From assembly GCF_051622035.1 (NCBI RefSeq), contig NC_135361.1, forward strand, positions 31,239,205 through 31,303,204: a DNA stretch of 64,000 nt, in the 5' to 3' direction. Below, piece by piece: positions 693 through 50,029 of the stretch (positions are counted from its first letter, which is position 1; the number at the start of each line of letters is the position of its first letter). The notes below the pieces were generated by a model. That model was not told where the DNA came from. It did not search any database and saw nothing but the letters and a program-made list of their open reading frames with translations. This DNA is from Arctopsyche grandis (taxonomy: Eukaryota; Arthropoda; Insecta; Trichoptera; Hydropsychidae). A program made the position numbers and the translations under genes.

Positions 693-3600
693 ATCCGGAC
701 TGGGATGGTGAGAGTCAGCGATGGGAAAACTCGTCCAGAACCGGCAAGATTACGACTATCCATGGAGACTCTCGCCGTGCAAAAAGAAGCCCCACCCAGA
801 GAGACGAGACCAGCTATGCACGCCAGGGTAAGCAGACAGACATGCCTCATAAAATCCTTTTATGACATGTAAAAAATTCAAAAAAGGTGTATTTGTAAAG
901 GAAAATAAACATCGCCGGCACTGGTATGTGCGTTTATAAATAGACCTTCAAAATTGTATTGATTGTCAAAGCCAAAGTCGCTTCACAGCATGTATTGGAT
1001 GATTAAGGTGATCCACGCACTGCCAGTGCTCCATCCAGAATGCCTTCATACGGCCTAAGTACCTGCTTATAAAACGCAGATCGCTCACTGCATCTTCCTC
1101 GACGCGTTTGTTTACCTATTGTTATAGTCACGTGTACCAGATATGCAGTCCCACGGTCTCGCGCTGTCAGTTCTGAGAACTCTAGTGGGAAGCGACCGAA
1201 TGCCGTTACCGACCACTAAGTCCATTTGGGGGTCTCCATTGTTAGCCGACAGCACTTAATCCTGTAGATAATCCTCGAAAACCATTTATAACGGCGGCTC
1301 CTTTTAGCATATGCTACAATAACTAAGCACCGAGAGGTCGCCGTGTGAGCTGACCTCGACTTAACCCTTTGAATGCTGACCAACGCCGATCGGCGTTTTG
1401 CTGACAAGTCTATGGGCCTGCAATACGCCGATAGACTTTGAAAATTTTACATGTACGTTGAGAATATAAGTTTTTATGCAAGTTTACCGTTTTGAATGAC
1501 GTCATATCAGTGGTGGGGGAGGCCGACTTTTAACCCTTTGAATGCTGACCAACGCCGATTGGCGTTTTGCCAATAATTTCATGAGCTTGAAATACGCCGA
1601 TAGGCGTTGTATTTTGAGTATGTTAAAAATAAACAAGAATACTACCCGCTAAGCCTTTCCAGGTAGCATTGAAAAAAAAATGCATTGAACATGGGTCGTG
1701 TAATCCGTGTCAATGTTTATAAAGACTGGTTTACACCGGAATTTCTGAATTTATAACCATAGCAGAATTACCCGATAAAAATCCCTAACTGCTGAGTATT
1801 TTAGATTGTGGCTTGGAATTTAGATTATGAGTTCTTCTTCATTTTAAAAACAATGAAGAAGATTTGGACAAATACATTCATTAAAAGACTCCTTTTGTTA
1901 ATTTTATATTGTTGCAAGATATATTAGAGAGTCTACATATTAGAGAGACACACCTTTACAAAACTCGAAATCCTCGACGGTAGTTATCTAGGGTTTGCTT
2001 GGATTAGCTACAATTTTTACTTACCTCCTTTACGTTTCACATGGCTTTCGGTCATTTTTTATATCTCTTATTATACCTGATTTCTTCTGGATTTCTAAAT
2101 AATTCTAGTTGGAAATATTGGCGAAATTTTCAGCGTGGCTGGCTTTCAACAGAAAAGACGTCAGCGCACTAAGGGTAATAGGAGTAGAGTTCGTTCAGTG
2201 AGTGGAGTGGATTTTATATTCCGCAAGAAGGATATAATGGAATTCTAGTGGAAGTTGCACACAAAGGTCTAAATATTTTTTGCAAAAAAGAATCGATCCT
2301 GCCAGGATTCGAACCTGGAATCTTCTGATCCGTAGTCAGACGCGTTATCCGTTGCGCCACAGGACCTATTGATCACTCCGATTCGATAGTAAAATAAAAA
2401 TCATTTTATCAGCGAAAAATTGATAAGATAGGGCCTGTCGTTATCAGAATTGATAAGATAATATACAATTTATATTTATGAATCAAAAAGGTAGATTTTA
2501 AGGTCCTGTGGCGCAACGGATAACGCGTCTGACTACGGATCAGAAGATTCCAGGTTCGAATCCTGGCAGGATCGATGCTTTTTTACATCTCGAATTTGTT
2601 GAATCGTATAAAAAATATGCTACCTACATATTGTATTTCTCGTAAATTTGCTGTTTAAAAAAAAATTTGTTGATTGTCCATAGATGTCTAAAATGTTAGT
2701 ACTTATGTACAAAATACAAAATATGTATTACTAGTTGTTTTCCCAGCTTCGCTCAGTATTTGTAATATAAACAGCTTAAACATGGCGAATTTAATTGTAA
2801 ATATTCATTTGTTTTTTTATTAATTTTATTTGAATCGAAAAAAAATATCGAATCGTCAATGTTACATACAAAGTCTCTTTCGAAATTATATGTATATTAG
2901 ATACATGGATGTTTAAAAATGTTAGTAGTTACATATATACAAAAAAAATCTTAGTATGTGTCGCCTTCGGGTAATTCCTGTAATGGCACATATTTTATTT
3001 TTCTACATGTATATACCATGAAGGCCTAACAGTTAAACCTCAATGCTTCCTAGTTAATTACAAACGTCGATATACAATTTTTAGAATAATTTTAAAAAGC
3101 ATCATAGACGACACATAGATATGTATATGGATAAATTTTTTGATAAACTTACATTTTCTGCTCGAAAGCATAATACGCTTACCACTAGTCCACGCTGCCG
3201 ATTAATTTTCACACATTTCAATGTTTGAAATGTTAAAAATCTTATAAAAAATATGCTACCTACATATTGTATTTCTCGCAAATTTTCTATTTAAAAAAAA
3301 ATTTGTTGATTGTCCATAGACGTTTAAAACGTCAGTACTTATGTACAAAATACAAAATATATTACTAGTTGTTTTACCCGGCTTCGCTCAGTATTTGTAA
3401 TATAAACAGCTTAAACATGGCGAATCTAATAGTAAATATTCATCGAATCGCCATAGAAACTGATTTGTTTTCGATTTCCAACCAACTATAGTACAAACAT
3501 ACAAAGTCTCTTTCGAAATTATATATTATACCAGAATCTGGCGCCCCCCCCCCAGCGCCTCCCGTCCCCCGTCCCCATGTCGTCATGGAAATTTTGACTT

Positions 3601-9600: not shown

Positions 9601-12600
9601 GAAATCTATGGATTATTTTTAGATTTTTTTTGTATACAATTTTTATACATATAATAAATACGAAATTATAGAGATATCTATAGATTTCAGATTACTGTGT
9701 ATAATTATTACAAATTATACACAGGCAGATTTTGTGACAACAGGATTAGATCTAATACCAATTTTCAGGAACCGTTTCAGCAATGATCAGATAAAATTGG
9801 CAAACTCTGATAGAGAAACGATCGATTTGGAGTCACAAAACCACCAAATCTAACCAGCAGTGGCGAGGACTCGAACCTTTGACCTCAGTGGTGCTAAATA
9901 CATATATACACTACCACTAAGCCAAACTGCTGGCTATATATGAAGTCAGTACTTTAATTAAATGGTCAGTAAATAAAATAACATACATTTGAACCAGTAG
10001 ACAAAGACAGTATTTTATATATAATTTTACGGTCAGCATATATGTATATATTAAATCATCGGTTGTTTTAGTAAAACGGTTATCTGTTTAAAAAAATTAT
10101 CTGTTATTATAATAAATGGTAAGTAAATAAAATAGCATAGGGCTCAGTAGACAAACGGATGGTGTATTTATCGTTTGATCAGTATTTTAAATTAAACGGT
10201 CAGTTTATTTCGACAATTGGTACGTAATTTGATAAATAAATGAGGTTATGTTGTACTCATTGAATCAATGGCTGTACTATTAAGCATAATGGAATGATTT
10301 TTTGATACCAAAAACATTTAAGTGATTTTTTTTATACATATGTACTTGTCGTATGTCGAAATCATATATTATATACATATATATGATTTCTATATTTAAC
10401 TATATAATACTAATTGTTTTACCCGGCTTCGCTCAGTATTTGTAATATAAACAGCTTAAACATGGCGAATCTAATAGTAAATATTCATTTTTTTTTTATC
10501 GTCGTCATATAAACTCATAGATTTGTTTTCGATGTTACCAACCAACATTACATACATACATATGTACATACAAAGTCTCTTTCGAAATTATATATTAGAT
10601 TATTACAATATAATTCAATGCAAGGTCTTAAATAATATTACCGTAAGTTTTGCTGTCCATAACATAACGTTGACAATTATTTGTATCGTCTAAAATAATT
10701 TTCCATTAATATAAAATATATACGTATTTCATAAATAAATTAATAATATCAAAGCCCGCTTAATGGGTGAAATAATTCGACCCTTAAGCCCTCAATACAG
10801 TCCGAGAGACCCTTTCGTCGGAGAACGAGACTGTTTCTAGTTTTCAGGGTTTTAAAGTAAAATATTCCATAAAAAGTCAATCCACCCTATTTTCAGTACC
10901 ATGCAGTATTTGTCTCACAAAAATGTGTCCCTTTTCATCACATCCTACTACTTACTCTATATTTTTTTTTGCTTTCGTGCTGCGGCGTTAATGAAAGAGC
11001 CAGTCCTGTGCAAGTGTCCCGGGTTGTGTATGTGTACATACATATATGTATGTATGTTGAGAATGTTGGTTGAGCTTTAGAATAGAGATCAAAAAGCTGA
11101 ACCCTTAATGACTGCAAATGTGAAAGATGTGTATGCTTGCACTTAACTAAAAATACTTCATTTGAAAAAAAATCTCTAGAACTACTGGATATGACTATGT
11201 ATCATCTTAATTGCTTAAAAATCGATTACATGCAGACAGAATATGTATATCTAATAATAAACTAATTACAAGGGCTATGGAGTTGGAGTCGTAAAAAATC
11301 AACCGACTCCGACTACTTTTTACAAGGTTTGAATTATTTTTTTTCTTCTCAACTAAAGTCACCAATAAAAATTATATTGATAACTGGCTTACCTCGATAA
11401 AATAAACGAATTTTTGTTATTAATCCACAAGAATAGTCGACATATGATTTTTCTAAGTAGAATTTTATTTTATTCTCATACAAAGACAATTTAATATATT
11501 ATCCCTATTAATTCAATTCAGATTCGTGTAAATACGAGTAAATACTAGTACGTGCTTTTAGCTCGCAATTTTACCGATTTAAAATTCAGCACACTTCCAA
11601 TTAACCCTTTTAAACGAAAACAAAAAATAGTGTGGCCAGAACACTATCCCAATAAACATGTGTCAATAGAAAATACTCAATATAAAATAGTATTAACAGT
11701 GGGAAAAAAATCCCAAGTGAAAATACGTACTTTTGACTTTTCATTTGAACTGGACGACTACTTATGTACAGAGATTTGAAAGCTGAAAAGTACTAAAAAT
11801 GAAAGATAAAATACCCGACTATAGATTCCAGTATTAATTTTGAACAGGAAATTGACAGATTTTGAGACATCGACCAAACAACACCAAGAATAGAAAAATC
11901 ACGCGATTTAAAAAACACATATCTCCGAATCTCGAGCCAATCAACATTTTTTTAATACCAGATTCGTGTTCACTGGGCATAGATCTATGTATAAGAAAAG
12001 TCATATCTCGTCTCTGAACCATTTTTCATGTTGAACAGTGTAATTTCTCTATACGAATCATGAATTTAAATTACATCTATATATATAAAATTGAATGTTT
12101 GTCTGTTCGATTACATGGAACTTTCAGGATTTGTTGTATGCATGTCCGGGAAGATTACTGTGAAAATAAACGGGAAAAAACCTCTTAATAATAATATTTG
12201 TAATTACGATTTTATCGACGCGAAAGTATGAAGCGCCAGTGTGTAGTTAAGGAAATGTGTACGTTGGTAACCAACTTGCGCGCACGCATGCCAACCCTTA
12301 CATTACGTACCACTCATACCAACCTTACATTGCGTACCACTCATAACAATCCTACATACATATATGTATATAAAAATCAATGTGTGTCTGTCTGTCACGT
12401 ATGCGTTCCTATACTTTACTATAATTTAATTTGATTATTAAGTATTAATTAGAAACTGAAACATTCACTTATCGAAACGCATCGAGAAACGGGAACGGGA
12501 ATTGCATGCATTACTATACGATGGAACTTTCTGGATTTATTGTATGCATGTCCGGGAAGCTTACTGTGAAAAAAAATCGGCCAAAAACGGGAACGGAAAC

Positions 12601-15600
12601 GAGAAAAACGGGAATGAGTGGCATTGCAACGCAATAATTTCAAATGTTTTCGCTTCAAATGATATTGTTATTATTAATATTTTTTCACGTACTCTTAAAC
12701 GATCTTCCCCGGTTGAGAAACGCTGTAATAATGAAATTTACAAATATTAATTGTATTTTAATCTTATAATAAGTCAATAAAGCAATATGAATTGAAAAAT
12801 TGAAGATGTACATCGACGGCTAGTCAAATTGTTAAAACCAATCAATCAAACACTTTTCAAGGCCAAATCACACGTATTATATTAGTATGGACGTCAAAAC
12901 CACTATAAAAATCATTATTTTTTCTACAATTTCTTAATGGTCGATAAAAAAGTACTTCCGTCATCGCAACTCTCCATTCCTGCAATGTCACGTACATATG
13001 AAAATGTATATCAATTAACTTCTACTTAATTTAATCAGTATTTGATTGATCTCCAGCTGACGCCACGTCTGACAATGAGAGCATAGCAGGAGACGAGCAT
13101 CCTCAACATCATGCCAACGGAGGCTGGGGCAGCGTAGCCGGCCTCGGAGACAACCACAACCACGATAATGCCAGCGTCAAAGGCACCCCCGTCACCGAGA
13201 CAAGCCTGTCAGCTAACCACAACAGTCTCGGCAGAAACGATGACTGCTGGAGTCGAGCTGGATCAGCTACAAACAGTCGACCTTCCTCCGTAGCCTCCGA
13301 CTACGTTGGCTCCATCGGACGGAAGCATTGGGTCGACATCTTAACAGGTTATACTTCACACACATACTTCAATTTGATGCATTTCAACGTTTAATTAATG
13401 ATATTTGTTGGTATTTCAGTTCCTCTCATGATGGCTTACGTCACCCGCTACGTCTTCGGCACCGACAAACTTCGACCCAACTCGTTCGAAGTGCGAGGTA
13501 TCAACGGAGCTTCCACCGGGGTTATTCACTGTGATGATTTGGCTATCATGTCTCAATGGTTGAAACTTATCACCGATAACATTGTCGGCCTGACTAATCT
13601 ACAGGTATTCTATTTATATAATATAATATAATACTGTCATGTTCAACATTAACTTCTGCAGACTCCGACGTGTATTTAATTTGAGCTATGCATAGAAATA
13701 ATACGTTTTATATTAATTAAAAATCATGCATCATATTTGGATCAGTTCTTCTTCAATAGCAATGCATGCTTCTAACCGAAAGTAAATGCTAAACAGATTC
13801 AAACCAACAGCTATGTAATATTATAAATAGGGTTCGTTATATTAGACTACCTTAGTCCTAGAAAATGGCACTAGTCAATATACATATATACTTGTTATAC
13901 TCAATTTATATATAATATACGAAAATTATCATTAACCTGGAATTCTTATTATGGTCCATTATAGCAATGACAAAAAAGCTATTGTTTTCATATAAATCGA
14001 TTCTATAGCCCACTTATGTAACTTGAGAACTTTGAGGAGTCTGCAGACAATCCATTGAGAAACTCCAGCACTCAATTTTATATTATATTTATCATAATTA
14101 CTTTCAGACTAAGTTATACAATAGAAATTTTGCTGCCGGTGAAAGAATAGAATATATGGGATGGGTACATGAAGGGGTGTTGAACAACAATCAACCTTGG
14201 CAGACTTACAAACCGAGGTTTCTCACACTCAAAGGAACCGATGTTATGCTGTTCGATACACCACCTGTTAGTATACACAGACCTATTTACCTTCATCTAA
14301 ACAGTTGTAGCCTATTTTTTAACCTCAAATTTTATTTAATATTAGCTATTTTATCTAAAAAATAGATCCAAGTAAATATATCTCTCTTTCAGGTGAATGT
14401 TGCCGGCTTGTCGAAATGTCCCTACGTGCTCAAAGTATACCAAACGATGTTTCGTGTTGTGAAGGAGAGTGAAAATGTCGATTGGCGACAACACTGCTTC
14501 CTGGTGCAGGCATCCGGAGCGGCTGGTCCTCGATACCTGAGCGTTGAGACTCGTCAGGAGCTGCTCCGCATCGAGAGCGCCTGGACAGCTGCTATTCTCA
14601 CGTCGGTCATTAAATTAGGGGTAATAATGCTATAAACACATTCCAATAAAAACACCTTGATTTTAATGTACAACCAATTTATGTTCTATTTTCAACAATC
14701 ATTTTTTTAAGTGCTTCAATCAGTTCCGGCACCTGATCAGTAATTTTTCTCCAATCTTCGAATTTCAAACAGTAAATGTCGCATGTTTCCAAAGCCAAGT
14801 AGCTAAAAATGCTCTTTCTATTTCCTTTGAGCAACGATTCCTCGCCGAAATAGTCTCCGTCGTCCAAATGAGCTATCTCCAAACCGGAGGCGTTCTCAAC
14901 AGCAATCAATCCCGTTACTAAGAAAAGCATTGAGCTGTTTTTCTGTCCTGATTTTATAATGTACTAAAATTTATACAGAAAATTAATTCTTAATTAAAAT
15001 CATAATATTTCATCTATAAAATACCAGGTTCAATCGTAAATGATGGTCAATTCGTGAATCAAACTATTGAAGACTGACTGAATTACATATATTTACAACC
15101 TCAATTATAGTACTGTCACCAGAGAAATGTTATAATAATAGAAGTGCCTTTACCAATAAATTGCCTGTGTCAATAAGACGCGGTACGTCTCCATAACTAC
15201 GCTACAACGCACGGAATATAATCAGGGTCATCACATATTCACTATAGAAATTAAAGTTTTATTTTGATATAGTTTTATTTACAATTTGAGTATATGGTGG
15301 AGTTGGGTGTTGGTGGCCAATCCGTTTATTTTCTCAGTTGGCGGACTATTTTTATCCACTTTGCATTTTGCATTTGTCTGTCTTTGGCAACTCTTAAATT
15401 AACGTGTAATGTATAGTTTCAACAAAAATATGTATAACATAAAATAAACGATGTTTATATTAATTAAACTTAAATAATTGGATATTAATATAATTGAGTA
15501 TTCGGCGCCACCAAGAAAAATATTTTTACATATAATTAAAAATAAGTTTTACATTTCTCTGGTGCCACCCCTGAAATTTTATGTAGAATGCGGGCGATCG

Positions 15601-18600
15601 CCATGACACTTTTAAAAACTGGCAAACTACGATGTTAATTGAATAATATGTAACTTAAATGATCCCATGTTGTTTATTGTGTGTTTTTGAATGCATTGTG
15701 CAATTTTTAACTATACATTTGCCAATCTTGCGAATAATATAAACAAACAGAGAAGTTTTTATCGGACACACGTCGAGCACCAAGCATCAAATACGACTGA
15801 CGCTAAAATTATTTGAAAAGGTCTGTGGACATTCCTCACTAGACAACAATATGACGCCTAAAGGTCTGACCGCACTATGCGTCTGCGACACGAACGGCAG
15901 CGTGCGGCCAAATATTGTTTGTATGAAAATGTATGAGATATAACGCACTACGCGTCACGCGACAGAGTTGCCTTTTGTATAAACTTTGCCGTGTTGTGTC
16001 GTGCTGCAGCAGTCGACGGCCGTATAGTGCGCGGTCAGACCTTAAAGCCACTTCTATTATTATAACATTTCTCTGACTGTCACTGTCAAAAACGTTATTA
16101 GAACTCAAACCAACAGCTGATTAACTATTCAATACTATATCGTCTGAATTGTCACCATTGCGATGACCTGTATTTAGTCTGATTTCTAATCTCCAATATG
16201 ACTACTCTGAAAGGACTTATACACGATAGACACTAAAGCCAATAAACACTAAATTCCCAAGTTCTTCTAAGCCACTCCATTTAAATCATGTCACAAACCG
16301 ATGTGAATAAAACGCCGCGTAAAAAACGTAGCGTGAATAAAATTGTTACCACGGGTGTGTTTTAACCGCTTAGACGCCCAGCCGACGCGCTGAGCGTATA
16401 ATAGATACGGCTGTTTGCGCCTTAAGGCGCTTTGGGCAGCTAAGCGGTTAAAAGTGGTGTTTTATTCGCGTCGGTTTATAGGATGCTAAGAAGCAGTTTC
16501 TCGCGTGTACGCGTCAAAAACTATTAAATTTTAACAAATGAAAGTGAATATCTTTCTTAAGTCCAGTGCCGGTTTTAGGGGGGGGTGGGTCGGGCGGTGC
16601 CCGAGGGCGCCGAGTATATTGGGGCGCCACTCCATGCACCGAAGGCGCTTTAAAATTTAAAATTAGGGCGCCAAAGACCCAAAAAAATTTTAGTTTAGAG
16701 TGCCAAAGGCGAAACTTAAATTGATTATTTGAAATTGAAACTTATCTCCGGTCTACAATGTCACAAAATAATTTGTAACAATTTCTAGGGGCGCTTAAAA
16801 AAAATTCCCCGAGGGCGCCATAGGGTGTAAGGCCGGCACTGCTTAAGTCCACTACATATGTTTGTGTATCGTGTGTACATAAGTCCCTCAGACATCCAAT
16901 ATATGTATATGTGTACTCACATCCCCCGACATGTAGGTGTCTTGAACGAGAAAATCCACGATCTGCACCAGAATGGTCATCGAAATGTTTTTAAAGATGG
17001 CCACTCTCGTCAGTAACGTTTGGCATTTGTGCATTTTGATCTCCTTCCTGAGATGATCGTTGAGCCTAGTCATGATCTTCTTCTCGTTGTAGTTCAGCAT
17101 GCACAACTTGCTCGTCATGAACATGTAGATCTTGTCGCGAACTACTCTCGGCAGACGCTTGTCAATCATGAAGCACTTCGCCTCGTCCAACTTTTCGCCG
17201 AAGGCCAACTTATGACCGAACCTCATCTCGGTGGCGGTGATCACCTTCATGATCATGTAGATTTGAAAGATGCAACCGATGACCATCAGACTCGCCGATA
17301 TCATATCGTAGTTGTAGTCCTCGAACACCAGATTCCTCTGTCCCGACGACGACATTATCCCGGTCACGTAATACAGACACAGGCAGTAGACGATCCAAGT
17401 GCTCCGACCGCTCATCTCCTCGACATAATCCTCCACGAACATCTCCGCCAGGTGGTTGTAAATGGAGGCCGTCCAGTGCACCAGCATGACCGTCCTGAGG
17501 AATATGTCGAATCGGTACATCCACTTGAAGTCGAGGCTTACTTGGTGGCATATCGTCTCGAAATATATCAACACGCACTGGAAATGAAAGCATTTGAAGA
17601 AGAGCGACACGTCGAACCACACCTTGTTGCCGATGATGTACAGTATGTGTTGAATGGGAAGAAATCCCACAAAGTTGAACACGAAATCTCTCTTGATGTA
17701 CTCTCTAGCCGAGTGGGGCAGGTCGAAGATCACTTCAGATAACCGTTCGTGGTGGGCTCCGGTGAAAAATTTCACCAATATATCAAGCAAGGCGACAAAA
17801 TCAGAGCAAAATATAATCATAATTATCGGTTTTCCTTCTAAAATAATAAAAAAAAAACGCTTAAGTTACATACATATACATATACACATAAAATATATAG
17901 ACATGCGACTATCAAAAAATAAAGCGCAAGTTATTCAACTTTGCTAAACGAACGATAGACGTCGCCATTTCATAGCATCGCAACCTGGTGGACGCGGCTC
18001 TTTTAGTACCGTGCGCACCACTTTGATCTAACGCGTGCGAGCGCAATCGCGTGTGAGGGAGAAAACCTACGTTAGTTAACGTTTTGTCACCTATATATGT
18101 ATGTATGGACTAGCTAGCAACTGTCGATAAAGTACACATGTATGTACGTAGCTGAAAAACTCTACGAGCGGTAAAAAATGTGTTCCGCGAATATCAAGAG
18201 GCTGCGTGGCTCTGCACTAGGTTAATGGCGAAAACACACTGAGTAGTACGGGACGTCACGTCCTTTGGCTCACCGCTGTGACCGATTCACAGTGGGGGTT
18301 CCTCAATCCGAATTCGGGTGCAGTTGCACGTGCAGAGTGCATATGTTTGAGAGCTCGCACGTGTATTCATATCCATATGCAACCGAGATCAGAAAAATTT
18401 CTCAAATATGGGATTCACCGTTATTTTTATTTTTAAAATGTTAGCCACATTGACATTACAGAGTACTCTAACGCAGAGCACCGCAAGGTGAGTGACGCGG
18501 CAGTTTTGCTGCCGCGGGCACCACTTCAATCTAACGCGTGCGAGTGAGATCGCGTGTGAGGGAGAAAACCGATGTTAGTTAATGTTTTGTCATCTATGTA

Positions 18601-19831
18601 TGTACCGACTAGCTAGCGACTGCCGATGCAGTACATATGTATGTACGTAGCTGACAAACTCTACGAGTCATAAACAATGTGTGCCGCGAATATCAAGAGT
18701 GTGCGTGGCTCTGCTCTAACGCGTCACTGTGGCCAGTCACACAATCATAACATCATAATAATAATAACCAACTGTTATATTTTGATGGAAAAATCATTGA
18801 TATTTATAATTGATAAAAACAACCACGGACGTTGCTCAACAACCACTAAACCAGTTCAGCACAGCTTATATAAAGCAGGTCAATTTCACCACCAACCCGG
18901 TTGAGCAGATATATCGCTCTAGATATTGGAGACGTTGCCAACATATTTGTGCGAGTCACAGGAGGAGAAAACAAATCACATCAAGCAAGGATAAATACAC
19001 GGATGAAATGTCACCGAAAACATTCCAGGGGGTGATCTTTGGGACTGTGTGTGCCATGTATGTGGGCTATGGGTGCTGCATATTTTTCGCATGTTTAAAA
19101 GTATCTTTAAAAAAACACGTACCACGTACCACTCAGTGTACTTTCGTCCTAAAGCGTTTTGTTTCACGTCCGGTCTATACTTACTCCCCTCGCCTAAAAA
19201 AGTTAAAACTTCACAAAACCATACCATTGCGTTGTAGAAAAGTCGCAGCGGGAGCCAGGAAGCAAATAGTCAGCAACACGATAAATATGAAATGTTGCCA
19301 TATCAGTATGAATTCGGAGTATGGATGCAGCATGAAGGAATTCTTCATTGTCAGTTGCCGTTGCTGTTCCATATCGATGGCTTTCTCGCTGTGCAAAATC
19401 TTTTTAACCATGTAGTGCTTGGGCGATGCCAGACTCAATTCTCGGAGCTTGCGAAGAATCCACTTTCTCACCGAGCTCATTAGCAATGGACGTTTCGCGA
19501 AGAACATGGAAGTCGAGTAGATGCTCTCCGGATGTATACCACAAATATGTACTGCAAAATAATAAATTGCTATGAACCAATAATAATAATATATATAAAA
19601 ACGGATGTGATGTGTGTATGTATGTGGGTATGTGCCGGACCGTGGACACACAGCCAATCAGAGTCAAGTGGTCGGGGAGACGCGGGGAAGCGTGGTAGTG
19701 GGGAGGTGGGGAATGTGGAGCGTCATGTGACGTCAGTCCGAGTGACGACAGACATGTGCGACGTCAGGCCGAGCTAGGACAAGCATATGCGACGACAAGC
19801 ATGTGCGACGTCAGGCCGAGCGACGGGTGAC

Positions 19832-19864
<33 letters not shown>

Positions 19865-22320
19865 TCATTCATCATTTCGAACGGGTTGAATTGGTGAGCG
19901 TGTAATGTGCGCACTTTTTATTACGATTAATATTACGTGCACGCGCGCTCGCGCCTATAAATTACCTTACATTATATTTATGCTAGTGGTTTTACCCGGC
20001 TTCGCTCGGCATTTGTAATATAAACAGTTTAAAAATGGCAAAACAATCTAATATTAAACATTCGTTTTTTTTTTATTAAATGTATTTGAATCGAAAAAAA
20101 TAATATTCAACGATGTCGATATCGTCGTCATAGAAACTTTGATTTGTTTTCGATGCTCCCAACAAACCTTACATACAAAGTCTCTTTCGAAATTACATAT
20201 TAGATGTGTGTAACATATAACTTTATGTTAATTCGTGTATCAATTCCTTTCCGAAAGCACACATTGAAATCATCAAGAAACAAAAACATCTCGGGTGCAA
20301 AAGGTTGTCGGTAATATCATATGCCAATGAACATGAACCATAAACAATTGCAGCATTTTCTTTATCTGTCGAAATTAATTTAAGCCTGAGCAAAGCCTAG
20401 TGCTTAAGCTATTCCATATATGTGTATATACATTTTTGAGGTTTCTTAGTACAGTTTCTCATTTCTAATCAGATCAGTACTTTTTCTGAAAGTTTTCCCC
20501 CGACATGCTTTATATATATGTATATGTTAAGGCCGAGATGTATTTTCAGTTTATATATTCCAACTGGCGTTTTAGGTTATTCATATTCGAATACAATTCA
20601 ACTAGTAAATTATATCTCTACAAACGCAAATACACTCAACAATGTGCGCCAGTTGAAATTTGACGGCACTAATGTTTTTACAAATGCTTTATAATTCAAT
20701 AATATGTTAATATTTGTAATAATAAGTATTACAAATAAAGGTAATGAGTATCGTATTACAAAGTCTCTAAAGGTCTGACCGCACTATGCGTCAACCGAAA
20801 GATCCGACACTTCACAACAGTACGCGACCAAATATTGTTTGTATGAAATTGTATGAGACAACGCACTGCGCGACAGTCGCATGACGTAGAACGACACCGT
20901 GCGTCAAAGTTTGCTTTCCGACCAACTTTGACGCAACGTGTCATTGAGTGGGGGTTGCCTTGCGACAATTATTATCCTTCTTCATATCGTGACTTTGAAA
21001 TAGCATGTAGCCATAATCTTTTGGTTTTTCTCGATTGTTCTTCTTCCTCGAATGATTGACATAATATACTGCGTAGTGTCGCATCGCGATGCTGTCGTTC
21101 GAGTGCGGTTTACCTAATATTGTCGCACACTGTTGTGACGTGTCGGATCGTTCGTTTGACGAATAGTGCGGTCAGACCTTAAGAATGTGTGACGTTTTCA
21201 CGACAACCTAACCGCTCCATCTTACCTGATACTACATATATAACTTATAGTTGAATTTTATTTTCAGTTGTAATATATTTCGACCCGATGCGGTGCAAAC
21301 GATTGACAAGCGCCAGACAGACTGAACCACAGATTAACGACAAGTGTACCTTATGCGTGCGCACTGCTCGCACTAACACTAAGCGAAATCTACCTGAAGT
21401 CCCAATATACCTACCCTGTATACGTTCTGTGCTTCTGATACTTTAGTTCCGAATTTTGCCTTATTAAACTCGCCAGAAAGATCCAACTCAATTTTAATAA
21501 TTGCATCTGTGCACATAGAAAGGTTACTCGTCATCTGATGTGCAATCTATCATTCGTGAAGTCGAGAATTGCGTTTAAAGCAGCCATCCAGTTCATCTGT
21601 GGTTCAGTCTGTCTGGCGCTTGTCGATCGTTTGCACCAAACCCATCTTGACCAGTTGGAATGTAATTCGCCATATGAATCAACTTACGTGGGTTAGACGG
21701 CATATATTACAACTATAACGATAGCTGGTACCGGGTTAGATGGAACTAGTTAAAATATATTACAACTAGAAGATACACTTCAACTCCTAGCCTATACACA
21801 GTATATTCTCTTACCATCATCGATATCTTGCTTCTTCCCCATCTTGCCTTTTTACTTTATCTATTTTTTTTATTTATAATATCAACATATTCATTTGTTT
21901 TATTCAATTCAAATTGAATTATATTTCAGAAAAAGACTTTCACCGTGTCGTATGAGGGTCGAACTGCCGGCTTGACTTTGGACTGGTCTTCAGGCTTTTC
22001 GCTGAACGAAGGAGCTCCTGGCAATCCACCGGTTTGGGCCTACCGTTTCTCCCAATTGAGAGGATCCAGCGACGACGGCAAATCCAAACTGAAGCTTCAC
22101 TTCCAAGACAGCGAAACTCGAGCCATTGAAACAAAGGTAATAACAACTCTACATATGTAGCTATGAAGCGGAAAAATATTAAAAACTCATCTCCATGTGT
22201 GATTTTCAGGAGTTGGAGTGTCAGATATTGCAGAGTCTTCTGTTTTGCATGCACGCCTTCCTGACGGCGAAGGTCGCCTCCGTCGATCCGGCTTTCCTGT
22301 CTTCCATTCAAGCGACATAA
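693..22320 (+). CDS. SNTG1: gamma-syntrophin, nine visible exons (5' end outside or unseen)
   Basis: Syntrophins are cytoplasmic adaptors that bind dystrophin/dystrobrevin at the membrane and use a PDZ domain to tether channels and signalling proteins. Exons join in frame with GT-AG borders: 693-827, 6123-6282, 6413-6538, 13057-13347, 13420-13604, 14108-14266, 14393-14620, 21930-22136, 22210-22320 (TAA), giving about 533 residues; vertebrate gamma-syntrophins are 517-539. Exon 1 ([11 protein letters not shown]) fits the split PH1a start. The PDZ spans residues about 46-135 with the GLGL ligand loop ([11 protein letters not shown]) and ends [15 protein letters not shown] Ser/Asn/His-rich linker fills 141-225, then the rest of PH1, PH2 ([18 protein letters not shown]) and the C-terminal SU region with [20 protein letters not shown] and [18 protein letters not shown]. 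The SU wording points to the gamma class rather than alpha/beta. The initiator exon was not found, so residue numbers are relative. SNTG1 versus SNTG2 orthology is not resolved. Confidence 0.93.
1361..1615 (+). repeat. two direct copies of a piggyBac-like terminal sequence
   Basis: TTAA followed by CCCTTTGAATGCTGACCAAC occurs at 1361 and again at about 1530, each followed by a cgccgat...cggcg stretch that can fold. TTAA plus a CCC-start terminal repeat is the hallmark of piggyBac ends. A related CCCTTTGAATGCT lies at 40893. No matching right end was found, so these are fragments or one end duplicated. Confidence 0.5.
2294..2366 (-). tRNA. tRNA-Arg (anticodon ACG)
   Basis: The 73-nt gene folds as a full cloverleaf. 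The acceptor stem pairs GGTCCTG with CAGGATC and has discriminator G; the anticodon loop is CTACGGA, read as ACG; the T arm carries GGTTCGAATCC. A T6 Pol III terminator follows. No intron is present. It is identical to the copy at 2502 and is transcribed away from it. Confidence 0.97.
2502..2574 (+). tRNA. tRNA-Arg (anticodon ACG)
   Basis: This is the second copy, identical over all 73 nt to the minus-strand gene 135 bp upstream, with the same ACG anticodon and internal A and B boxes. A T6 terminator starts at 2579. The two genes are head-to-head inside a syntrophin intron, so one is transcribed with the host gene and one against it. Confidence 0.97.
2609..2900 (+). repeat. R2 repeat copy with upstream duplicated segment
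   Basis: The R2 core begins near the phrase cccagcttcgctcagtat, continues taatataaacagcttaaaca and ends with acaaagtctctttcgaaatt. The 120 bp before the core (aaaaaatatgctacctacat) is repeated at 3243. R2 copies also lie at 3365, 10417 and 19990. A non-LTR 3' end is possible but unproven. Confidence 0.75.
3243..3675 (+). repeat. R2 repeat, second tandem copy
   Basis: Its first 200 bp are nearly identical to 2609-2810, at an offset of 634 bp, so a block of intron was duplicated. The copy carries two successive acaaagtctctttcgaaatt tails (3500 and 3647) with an interposed C-run at 3543-3552. Confidence 0.75.
4278..4710. mobile_element. PIF/Harbinger-like MITE, family H1, long form
   Basis: The element starts AGGTCTGACCGCACTATGCG and ends with the complement (gcatagtgcggtcagacct), flanked by TTA on both sides. 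A 3-bp TWA target duplication with such termini fits PIF/Harbinger. At 433 bp it has no transposase. The same long form occurs inverted at 20771-21179 and a fragment at 59362-59531. Confidence 0.8.
4714..4930 (+). mobile_element. tRNA-derived SINE, head type A
   Basis: The head reads gcttctgcctaacaccgaga and then a B-box-like gggttcgatcccatg. The body ctgctggtcagacc leads to the tail shared by all SINEs here (gatcgttttctatcagagt, then tttgccaatttt and tgaaacggttcc). The head abuts the end of the H1 MITE. Confidence 0.75.
4985..5056 (-). mobile_element. SINE head A fragment, inverted
   Basis: This is the reverse complement of the SINE head at 4714 (aacccggcgcctctcggtgt), without the tail. It lies 60 bp from the complete copy. 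Confidence 0.65.
5241..6088 (+). mobile_element. diverged solo LTR interrupted by other repeats
   Basis: The left part (gcgtggacgtgtagaggggt) and right part (ttttggcgcgaacgcaagtg ... tctctacgttaca) match the beginning and end of the solo LTR at 36065-36367. About 600 bp of foreign DNA, including a SINE at 5785, separates them. The 3' edge lies just upstream of the syntrophin PDZ exon acceptor. Confidence 0.6.
5785..5960 (+). mobile_element. tRNA-derived SINE, head type B
   Basis: The head is gcgtggactagtggttagct with a B-box-like gcggttcaattccc. The shared tail follows (gatcgattcctatcagagtt, tgaaacgg). The head differs from type A although the tail is common. Confidence 0.75.
7185..8615 (+). 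repeat. segmental triplication within intron
   Basis: Three copies of a roughly 280-bp module start near 7190, 7885 and 8325. Each contains tggtacctagtacctactaa, a taccagcgataaat block and cacttctcaaagtgtattca. Spacers between copies carry a whole SINE (7700-7885) or a deleted remnant of it (8245-8330), which shows that the SINE was present before the last duplication and was later internally deleted in one copy. Confidence 0.85.
7700..7885 (-). mobile_element. tRNA-derived SINE, inverted
   Basis: Read on the minus strand it has an actagtggttagcatataat head, ctgctggtcagacc and the shared tail (aggtcgatcgtttcctatca). It lies in the first spacer of the triplicated region. Confidence 0.75.
9272..9340 (+). 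mobile_element. SINE head B, truncated
   Basis: The sequence cagcgtggactagtggtcat is followed by a degenerate B box. The tail is absent. Confidence 0.55.
9740..9935 (-). mobile_element. tRNA-derived SINE, inverted
   Basis: On the minus strand the A box reads tggcttagtggtagtg and the B box ggttcgagtcctcgcc. The tail shared by the other SINEs follows (tcgatcgtttctctatcaga, then tgaaacggttcc). This is the most tRNA-like head of the set. Confidence 0.8.
9950..10250. repeat. cluster of GGTCAGTAAATAAAAT-type short repeats
   Basis: The word ggtcagtaaataaaat and variants (tgatcagtattttaaatt, ggtaagtaaataaaat) recur several times in 300 bp. The same word family forms both ends of the element at 39765-40640, so this is probably a second, decayed copy. 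Confidence 0.5.
10417..10605 (+). repeat. R2 repeat copy
   Basis: It runs from tgttttacccggcttcgctc to acaaagtctctttcgaaatt, as in the copies at 2735 and 19990. No ORF is present. Confidence 0.75.
11412..12050 (+). repeat. dispersed repeat R1, long copy
   Basis: It matches 50146-50780 along its whole length, from tttttgttattaatccacaa to tctcgtctctgaac. An internal stretch at 11552-11779 is open for 75 codons but is interrupted in the other copy, so I do not call a protein. Confidence 0.8.
12076..12823 (+). mobile_element. candidate non-autonomous Helitron
   Basis: It begins A|TCTATATATATAAAA and ends gacggCTAG|T, with the short palindrome gatgtacatc just before the end. Insertion between A and T, a TC start and a CTAG end preceded by a hairpin are Helitron features. 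A module (tgtatgcatgtccgggaag) is present twice, at 12136 and 12540. No Rep/helicase is encoded. Confidence 0.45.
14662..14667 (-). terminator. possible poly(A) signal ATTAAA of the nested channel gene
   Basis: ATTAAA on the minus strand lies 12 nt after the channel stop codon. If used, the transcript would end close to, or inside, the antisense of syntrophin exon 7. Confidence 0.35.
14679..19551 (-). CDS. cyclic-nucleotide-gated/HCN-like channel with atypical S4 and pore (5' exon not found)
   Basis: Three exons join in frame on the minus strand: 19551-19225, 17837-16921 and 14963-14679 (stop), about 509 codons. The fold follows the CNG/HCN plan. S1 is [15 protein letters not shown]2 is [16 protein letters not shown], close to the family DIVINFRTG; S3 is [19 protein letters not shown]; an S5 carries [12 protein letters not shown] like the family LCHWDGC; then pore, S6, C-linker and a cyclic-nucleotide-binding domain (GDYIIKSG ... 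FLVTGLIAV ... [19 protein letters not shown]). Two hallmarks are missing. S4 ([20 protein letters not shown]) has one Lys and no Arg, and the pore reads [13 protein letters not shown] with no GYG. The phosphate-binding cassette keeps GE but has RKS for the usual R-(T/A)-(S/A). The first exon starts mid-codon after a ttttgcag acceptor, so an upstream exon exists. The stop lies 58 bp from a syntrophin splice donor. The family assignment is strong; ion-channel function is uncertain. Confidence 0.85.
15120..16075. mobile_element. non-autonomous Merlin-like element with 8-bp TSD
   Basis: Terminal inverted repeats of about 33 bp start CAGAGAAATGTTATAATAAT; the exact duplication actgtcac flanks both ends (15112-15119 and 16076-16083). 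Internal sequence (cgagcaccaagcatcaaata, ctaaaattattt) matches the flanks of the ISXO2-type transposase fragment at 47690-50140, so this looks like an internally deleted Merlin derivative. A Harbinger-like MITE sits inside it at 15862-16042. Confidence 0.7.
15862..16042. mobile_element. PIF/Harbinger-like MITE H1, short form
   Basis: At 181 bp it starts aggtctgaccgcactatgcg, ends cgcggtcagacct and is flanked by TAA on both sides. It is nested in the Merlin-like element. A near copy, inverted, is at 57620-57798. Confidence 0.8.
16366..16447. mobile_element. 82-bp piggyBac-like miniature element
   Basis: The arms CCGCTTAGACGCCCAGC and its imperfect complement (gggcagctaagcgg) are flanked by TTAA on both sides (16362-16365, 16448-16451). 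It lies in intron 2 of the nested channel gene. Confidence 0.65.
16564..16841. mobile_element. 278-bp non-autonomous hAT element with exact 8-bp TSD
   Basis: The ends are cagtgccgg and ccggcactg, with cttaagtc repeated on each side (16556-16563 and 16842-16849). The interior is rich in ggcgcc words. It is in intron 2 of the channel gene, 79 bp from exon 2, and looks recent because the target duplication is perfect. Confidence 0.85.
17990..18724 (+). repeat. two diverged 230-bp direct repeats, about 503 bp apart
   Basis: Copies at 17990-18222 and 18494-18724 share cgcgtgtgagggagaaaacc, gactagctagc, tatgtacgtagctga and ccgcgaatatcaagag. The GC content is higher than in the surrounding intron. 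No ORF explains it; it lies between exons 1 and 2 of the nested channel. Confidence 0.8.
19717..19825. repeat. GACGTCA-rich short tandem repeats
   Basis: A unit near 40 bp containing acatgtgcgacgtcaggccg recurs about three times, with one perfect CRE palindrome TGACGTCA at 19728. It lies upstream of the visible first exon of the minus-strand channel gene. A regulatory role is only a possibility. Confidence 0.5.
19835..19862. repeat. (AC)14 microsatellite
   Basis: A perfect dinucleotide run directly follows the GACGTCA repeats. Confidence 0.95.
19985..20205 (+). repeat. R2 repeat copy
   Basis: It runs from ggttttacccggcttcgctc to acaaagtctctttcgaaatt, with more internal divergence than the copies at 2735 and 10417. 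Confidence 0.75.
20771..21179. mobile_element. PIF/Harbinger-like MITE H1, long form, inverted
   Basis: AGGTCTGACCGCACTATGCG ... gtgcggtcagacct is flanked by TAA on both sides. Its 409 bp match 4278-4710 in the opposite orientation. Confidence 0.8.
21266..21714. mobile_element. inverted-repeat element just upstream of syntrophin exon 8
   Basis: Arms of about 45 bp (ggtgcaaacgattgacaagc, cagacagactgaaccacaga) occur at 21290-21335 and complemented at 21596-21640, with outer agttgtaatata/tatattacaact ends. A second tatattacaact lies at 21755-21766. No TSD is clear and the class is unknown. Confidence 0.6.
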
Positions 22321-49575: not shown

Positions 49576-49711
49576 AGTTCGTCCATCCAACTAATAAAAA
49601 AAATATCATTAATAAATAAAATATTAAATGTATTATTAAACATATATCTTTAAAAATTTATAGGAGGGGCTGCAGCTCGGCAGCCCATTAGGACGAGCCG
49701 CCACTGGACTA

Positions 49712-50029
49712 ATGCTAAAATTATTTAAGTTTATCGCAAGAACTTTAGTATTGCCGTGCCCTGAATTAACTCGACTTTTACCTGATGAAATACTCCGACA
49801 TATACTGCCTGGTTCACATATAATTTCGGACAGTTGGACAGCGTACGGAAATATTCCGAATTCCGGTAAAAGTGGTTATAATCTCTTGGATCCAAATAAT
49901 AGTGAAATACATACCCAAAATGCGGAAAATATGTGGATGCGTGTGAAAAGAAAGATGAAGCGTCAATTAGGTACAACGCGTGCCTGTTTTGATTCATATT
50001 TAGATGAATTTGTATTGAACCACGAATGA
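49712..50029 (+). pseudogene. ISXO2-like (Merlin) transposase, C-terminal fragment
   Basis: The frame shows the second half of an ISXO2/IS1016-type DDE transposase. ILPGSHIISDSWTAYGNI contains the second catalytic Asp, and HTQNAENMWMRVKRKMKRQL carries the catalytic Glu context, followed by DSYLDEFV. The N-terminal zinc ribbon and the first Asp are missing because the element was split. The ATG used here is created by the hAT target duplication, so it is not a true start. Confidence 0.85.

Follow-up and report, generated by a model that had tools for sequence, protein, structure and literature searches.

The nested gene and its host

The window, meaning the whole stretch of 64,000 nucleotides of Arctopsyche grandis DNA that was analysed, carries minus-strand exons of one gene inside a single intron of a plus-strand syntrophin gene, the nested antisense arrangement that an earlier note on this DNA had described. 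The features of the locus are the following:

14621..21929, plus strand: host intron of syntrophin (donor GGG/GTAATA, acceptor TTTCAG), enclosing the modelled nested gene
21930..22160, plus strand: syntrophin coding sequence resumes here, with the C-terminal PH domain (PF23012, E 2.3e-10); its right limit is the end of the open frame, not a mapped donor
19863..19875, minus strand: tentative end of a 5' coding exon (ATGATGAATGAAT followed by GTGTGT), a candidate giving M(M)NEL-HICGI
19225..19551, minus strand: first modelled exon, with the HCN-domain-like stretch and S1 (acceptor TTTTGCAG, donor GTATGG)
17838..19224, minus strand: intron 1, GT-AG
16921..17837, minus strand: exon 2, with S2, S3, an S4-like segment (one Lys), S5, the pore loop, S6, the C-linker and the start of the CNBD
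14964..16920, minus strand: intron 2, GT-AG, holding a transposon-like inverted-repeat pair
14679..14963, minus strand: last exon, with the remaining CNBD (PF00027, E 1.3e-11) and the TAA stop (14679–14681)
14662..14667, minus strand: ATTAAA hexamer, similar to a poly(A) signal, 3' of the stop and within the host intron

On the minus strand, exon sequence starts at 19551, directly past the AG acceptor, and the stop codon ends at position 14679. The three exons join into a frame of 508 open codons that ends in TAA, and with both introns of the GT-AG type the coordinates and the clean exon joining proposed earlier proved right. Because the stop codon and the ATTAAA hexamer both fall inside the syntrophin intron, the modelled part of the gene is fully nested. 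The 5' exon upstream of 19551, previously reported as missing, is still absent from the model. There are 36 candidates for it in all. The one ending at 19863 has a donor that scores 7/9 and lies inside a GT repeat, and a rival at 21688–21703, which would give MPSNPL-HICGI, has a donor scoring higher (8/9). The former was preferred only because C8 and C9, two HCN-like genes of the same genome, carry an H-x-C motif near the N-terminus, four residues past the first Met, which the HICGI start fits.

Over the 305 codons of exon 2, the coding frame has no stops, and the remaining five frames have 22, 8, 2, 16, and 22. The GC content of third codon positions (GC3) is 0.57, 0.731, and 0.432 in exons 1, 2, and 3, respectively, and the overall GC of the surroundings is 0.425 and 0.375 in the introns and 0.387 upstream. 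High GC3 is no general mark of this HCN-like gene family, because in the same genome Ih (0.39) and C8 (0.35) have low values; that of C9 is 0.64. Antisense to exon 2, at 17017–17742 on the plus strand, there is an open frame of 241 residues, which is probably a shadow of GC-rich third codon positions.

Several repeated elements were also observed. In intron 2 (15120–16075), two 33-nt sequences in inverted orientation show 97% complementarity across 890 nt of intervening DNA; together they look like a non-autonomous DNA transposon. Intron 1 has two copies of a repeat of approximately 250 nt (17971–18219 and 18474–18718), 82–87% alike and 0.5 kb apart. The 23-nt stretch GCGAAGCCGGGTAAAACCACTAG occurs on the minus strand with 0–2 mismatches at 3365–3387, 10410–10432, and 19983–20005 (and not once in 100 shuffles), and is present too in the intron of the C9 paralog; we take these stretches to be, perhaps, the ends of Helitron-like elements. 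Finally, an open frame at 49664–50029 encodes a transposase domain of the ISXO2-like kind (PF12762, E 2.3e-7), presumably of the Merlin type.

Family identity and domain plan

The closest solved structure to the nested protein is HCN1 (E 1.6e-35, residues 50–504), and the best CNG match among solved structures is CNGA2 (E 1.9e-19). The gene had been described as "CNG/HCN-type"; its HCN-like half holds, while the CNG-like half is not borne out. As in HCN channels (HCN1; 6uqf, 9bc6), which give the best sequence match, the order of domains is an HCN-domain-like N-terminal stretch, S1–S6, C-linker, and CNBD, and in the stretch before S1, 12 of 27 residues are identical with HCN1. CNG channels (CNGA3, 8ev8; the CNGA of this genome, on C2) also have the C-linker and CNBD, but they are more distant and their TIGET filter is not found in the nested protein.

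In Pfam, the cNMP_binding domain (PF00027) was recognized above the cut-off, while Ion_trans_N (PF08412; E 0.0031, 17.5 bits) stayed under its 27-bit cut-off and no match to Ion_trans was obtained at E up to 1. By hydropathy, S1–S4, the pore, and S6 pass the threshold, and S5 does not. The CNBD retains the FGE motif and has R-K-S in place of the R-R-T of HCN1; its C-helix ends before that of Ih and, judging from its length, could make nucleotide binding weaker.

The voltage sensor and the pore

The 26 residues of the S4 stretch include two His, one Lys, and no Arg, the latter two points as previously noted from the sequence, while Ih and HCN1 each have eight Arg/Lys in 34 residues, and C8 and C9 have five and four, respectively, in 26. 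The S3 Pro also lies closer to the S5 His, at 60 residues against 78 in Ih and 79 in HCN1 (a difference of 18–19 residues); the distance is 62 in C8 and 69 in C9. In the column of the S3 Asp, which is Asp in C8, Ih, and HCN1, the nested protein has Asn and C9 has His, and a different Asp is found in the nested protein four residues before this column. With C8, the S4 region shares 7 of 33 residues; the alignment of this segment is uncertain, because it is short.

The five filter columns of the nested protein read SSGQR in two alignments. In the register of GYG, only the first Gly is retained, with Gln-Arg at the positions of Tyr-Gly. The same columns are CIGYG in Ih and HCN1, LQGFD in C8, LYGLG in C9, and TIGET in the CNGA of this genome. 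The claim of a pore loop without GYG or GFG had the letters right, and the columns that correspond to the filter are SSGQR. An alternative exon supplying a canonical filter would have refuted that claim, and none was found in the host intron when the minus strand was scanned for GYG and GFG in frames of at least 15 codons: the motifs turned up at 21643 and 14796, both unrelated to a pore exon. Matches to the Ih and HCN1 proteins within the 64-kb window were confined to the three known exons. With the first Gly of the filter aligned and Ser/Thr residues close by, the pore may still allow some permeation.

The losses are reflected in the distribution of identities along the protein, counted with domain borders that were set by hand after S4 and the pore had been singled out. 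Compared with HCN1, identity is low in the S4 region (1/34), S5 (5/26), the pore (5/28), and S6 (3/29), and higher in the pre-S1 stretch, S1–S3 (29/98), the C-linker (19/74), and the CNBD (31/116); taken together, 14 of 117 positions are identical in the sensor and pore versus 91 of 315 in the rest (p 0.0002). The comparison with Ih gave a similar contrast (13/116 versus 75/289, p 0.0008), while Ih and HCN1, compared with each other, showed none (92/148 and 180/289, 62% in both, p 1.0). Against C8 (21/117 and 74/310, p 0.24) and C9 (19/117 and 73/317, p 0.15) the contrast was not significant, as might be expected if C8 and C9, with their own altered sensor and filter, had drifted in these parts too.

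Relatives in the same genome

Searches of the genome (475.7 Mb) with proteins, in which the best candidates were scored, found four HCN-like genes and CNG-type places on C2 and C13. One of the four is a canonical Ih on C12, with the filter CIGYG and eight Arg/Lys in S4; an upstream N-terminal exon of this gene was searched for and not found. The CNGA on C2 is visible from S5 on (CNGA3 match, E 5.9e-143). Besides the nested gene, the genome has two more divergent HCN-like genes, C8 (32576–32582 kb; 539 aa, six exons) and C9 (32418–32422 kb; 536 aa, two exons), which in the PDB match best to an HCN1-based chimera (E 6.7e-33) and to HCN4 (E 3.1e-38), respectively. The earlier view of the nested antisense gene as an intact, divergent paralog that has neither S4 arginines nor a GYG filter is supported.

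C8 and C9 have the same plan as the nested protein, with a shortened S4 stretch and a changed filter, but they retain more of the S4 Arg/Lys and their introns differ. C9 and Ih agree in the position and phase of the acceptor before S1 (HPYSxF-R; for Ih, on the acceptor side only), and the nested gene has no intron at this position. Identity is 21% for each pair among the nested protein, C8, and C9, and 21–24% for each of the three to Ih and HCN1; between Ih and HCN1 it is 62%. Among human, Drosophila, and sea-anemone HCN channels, 169 of 504 aligned positions are invariant, according to PMC4640657.

In the tree, the nested protein, C8, and C9 form a cluster (98/98), apart from Ih with HCN1 (93/94) and from the CNG channels; the three divergent sequences are long branches, and such joins may be false. 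A tree that omitted C8 gave no resolved order for Ih, HCN1, and the other sequences. A recent duplication of the Ih of this genome was rejected as the origin of the nested gene (nested protein with Ih as a clade, p-AU 1.4e-6), and so was a clade of the nested protein, Ih, and HCN1 (p-AU 0.0098). A clade of Ih with all three divergent genes was not firmly rejected (p-AU 0.051), and the divergent group may either predate the split between insect and vertebrate HCN or derive from the insect Ih.

Other CNBD matches in the genome, in a listing of 27, resembled by eye kinase, GEF, or CNG pieces or chance matches. The protein searches also gave a match to part of the CNBD at C11:29073157 (E 2.7e-6). 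Seven matches of equal score (L035–L041), GEF-like by eye, lie on C13 (four, 27.485–27.541 Mb) and C73 (three); the same frame of 173 residues is present at six of the seven and there is none at L041, a pattern that would fit either a segment duplicated not long ago or an artefact of the assembly. A near-identical CNBD frame of 313 residues, kinase-like by eye, was found on three small contigs (C49, C65, and C75; L022–L024). The genome also gave a match to a gloverin domain (E 2.6e-5, 58 of 155 profile positions), gloverins being known from Lepidoptera. With exon 2 as the query, viral contigs gave three pattern matches and no true relatives.

The open frame and neutral drift

In a neutral simulation started from the frame of the nested gene, with substitutions only and no indels, the frame stayed open in 26 of 400 runs at 90% identity, in one of 400 at 80%, and in none of 400 at 70% or less. 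Since neutral drift would break the frame, the gene is not an old pseudogene, and because 508 codons are open at 21–24% identity to its relatives, the divergence was gathered under constraint. Of the earlier view that the gene is not a pseudogene, the part concerning an old one stands; a very recent death would be compatible with the simulation, and is considered below.

Interpretation

We favor, with a probability of roughly 0.5, the reading in which the nested gene is intact and encodes a divergent HCN-related protein that serves as a regulatory subunit, with a dead pore, no sensitivity to voltage, and a CNBD. Because S4 is almost without charge and Gln-Arg replaces the Tyr-Gly of the filter, a voltage-gated selective channel is unlikely. 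The protein would not be able to sense voltage in the manner of HCN and, alone, would form no K+/Na+ pore; it may act alone, or join C8, C9, or Ih via the C-linker. The protein has probably changed from a channel into a regulator, losing the hallmarks of sensor and filter and keeping the part that binds cyclic nucleotides. Of the options raised in the earlier note (non-selective, non-conducting, or regulatory), the last two, in combination, are those favored. CNG channels are unlikely to sense voltage strongly, and by its sequence the same appears unlikely for the nested protein.

The main rival to the regulatory subunit is a leaky, voltage-insensitive cation channel, that is, one that still conducts with weak selectivity and is opened by cyclic nucleotides in the way of CNG channels, through an unusual filter. 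The C-linker and CNBD are retained, hydrophobic stretches persist at the pore and S6, and the filter has its first Gly in register. In length, the S4 stretch falls short of the HCN one and so comes nearer to that of CNG channels. However, SSGQR is neither GYG nor the TIGET of CNGA, and it places an Arg at the second Gly of GYG; S5, the pore, and S6 are poorly conserved in relation to HCN1, and S5 falls below the hydropathy threshold. We therefore consider a conducting channel unlikely, even as the main competitor of a regulatory subunit.

Among HCN relatives whose pore is dead, zebrafish HCNL1 offers the nearest precedent. PMC11700363 describes it as restricted to sperm, with a non-conducting pore domain and a flow of protons through the voltage-sensor domain (VSD) that is blocked or reduced by adding Arg to S4. 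By that account, HCNL1 resembles the nested protein in being an unusual HCN relative. A conduction of protons or other ions through the VSD of the nested protein, with the central pore dead, would agree with this precedent and with an S4 lacking any Arg, but we regard it as very improbable, since HCNL1, as described there, is gated by hyperpolarisation and the nested protein has a sensor nearly without basic residues, with its single Lys.

A gene that died recently, before stops and frameshifts accumulated, would fit the short C-helix of the CNBD, the unsettled start exon, and the frames that the simulation left open at 90% identity, but it is highly unlikely against 508 open codons at such low identity to C8, C9, Ih, and HCN1, GT-AG introns, an exon 2 GC3 of 0.73, and a poly(A)-like hexamer.

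Returning to the regulatory subunit, a broader and rather doubtful proposal is that the lineage of this insect carries several HCN-derived proteins whose sensor and pore decayed to varying degrees while the cyclic-nucleotide module was retained, the nested gene being the end point: a membrane-anchored sensor of cyclic nucleotides that is no channel and acts via partners. Among the literature matches listed, a partial coverage and weak evidence, there was no report of insect genes of an HCN type without sensor and filter. Such genes in moths are likely to carry an automatic annotation as HCN-like. By analogy with HCNL1, testis or sperm may be guessed as the site of action. Four channel terms had no occurrences in two papers on lepidopteran sperm (PMC11288676 and PMC13060016).

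Ih, C8, C9, and the nested gene make up a natural series within one genome: the number of Arg/Lys in S4 falls from eight through five and four to one, and the filters read GYG, GFD, GLG, and GQR, respectively. If the reading as a regulatory subunit is true, a relative of HCN would part the role of this family as channels from its role as a cyclic-nucleotide-sensing scaffold, a separation based on the constraint of the HCN-domain-like stretch, S1–S3, the C-linker, and the CNBD, and on the loss of the marks of sensor and filter.
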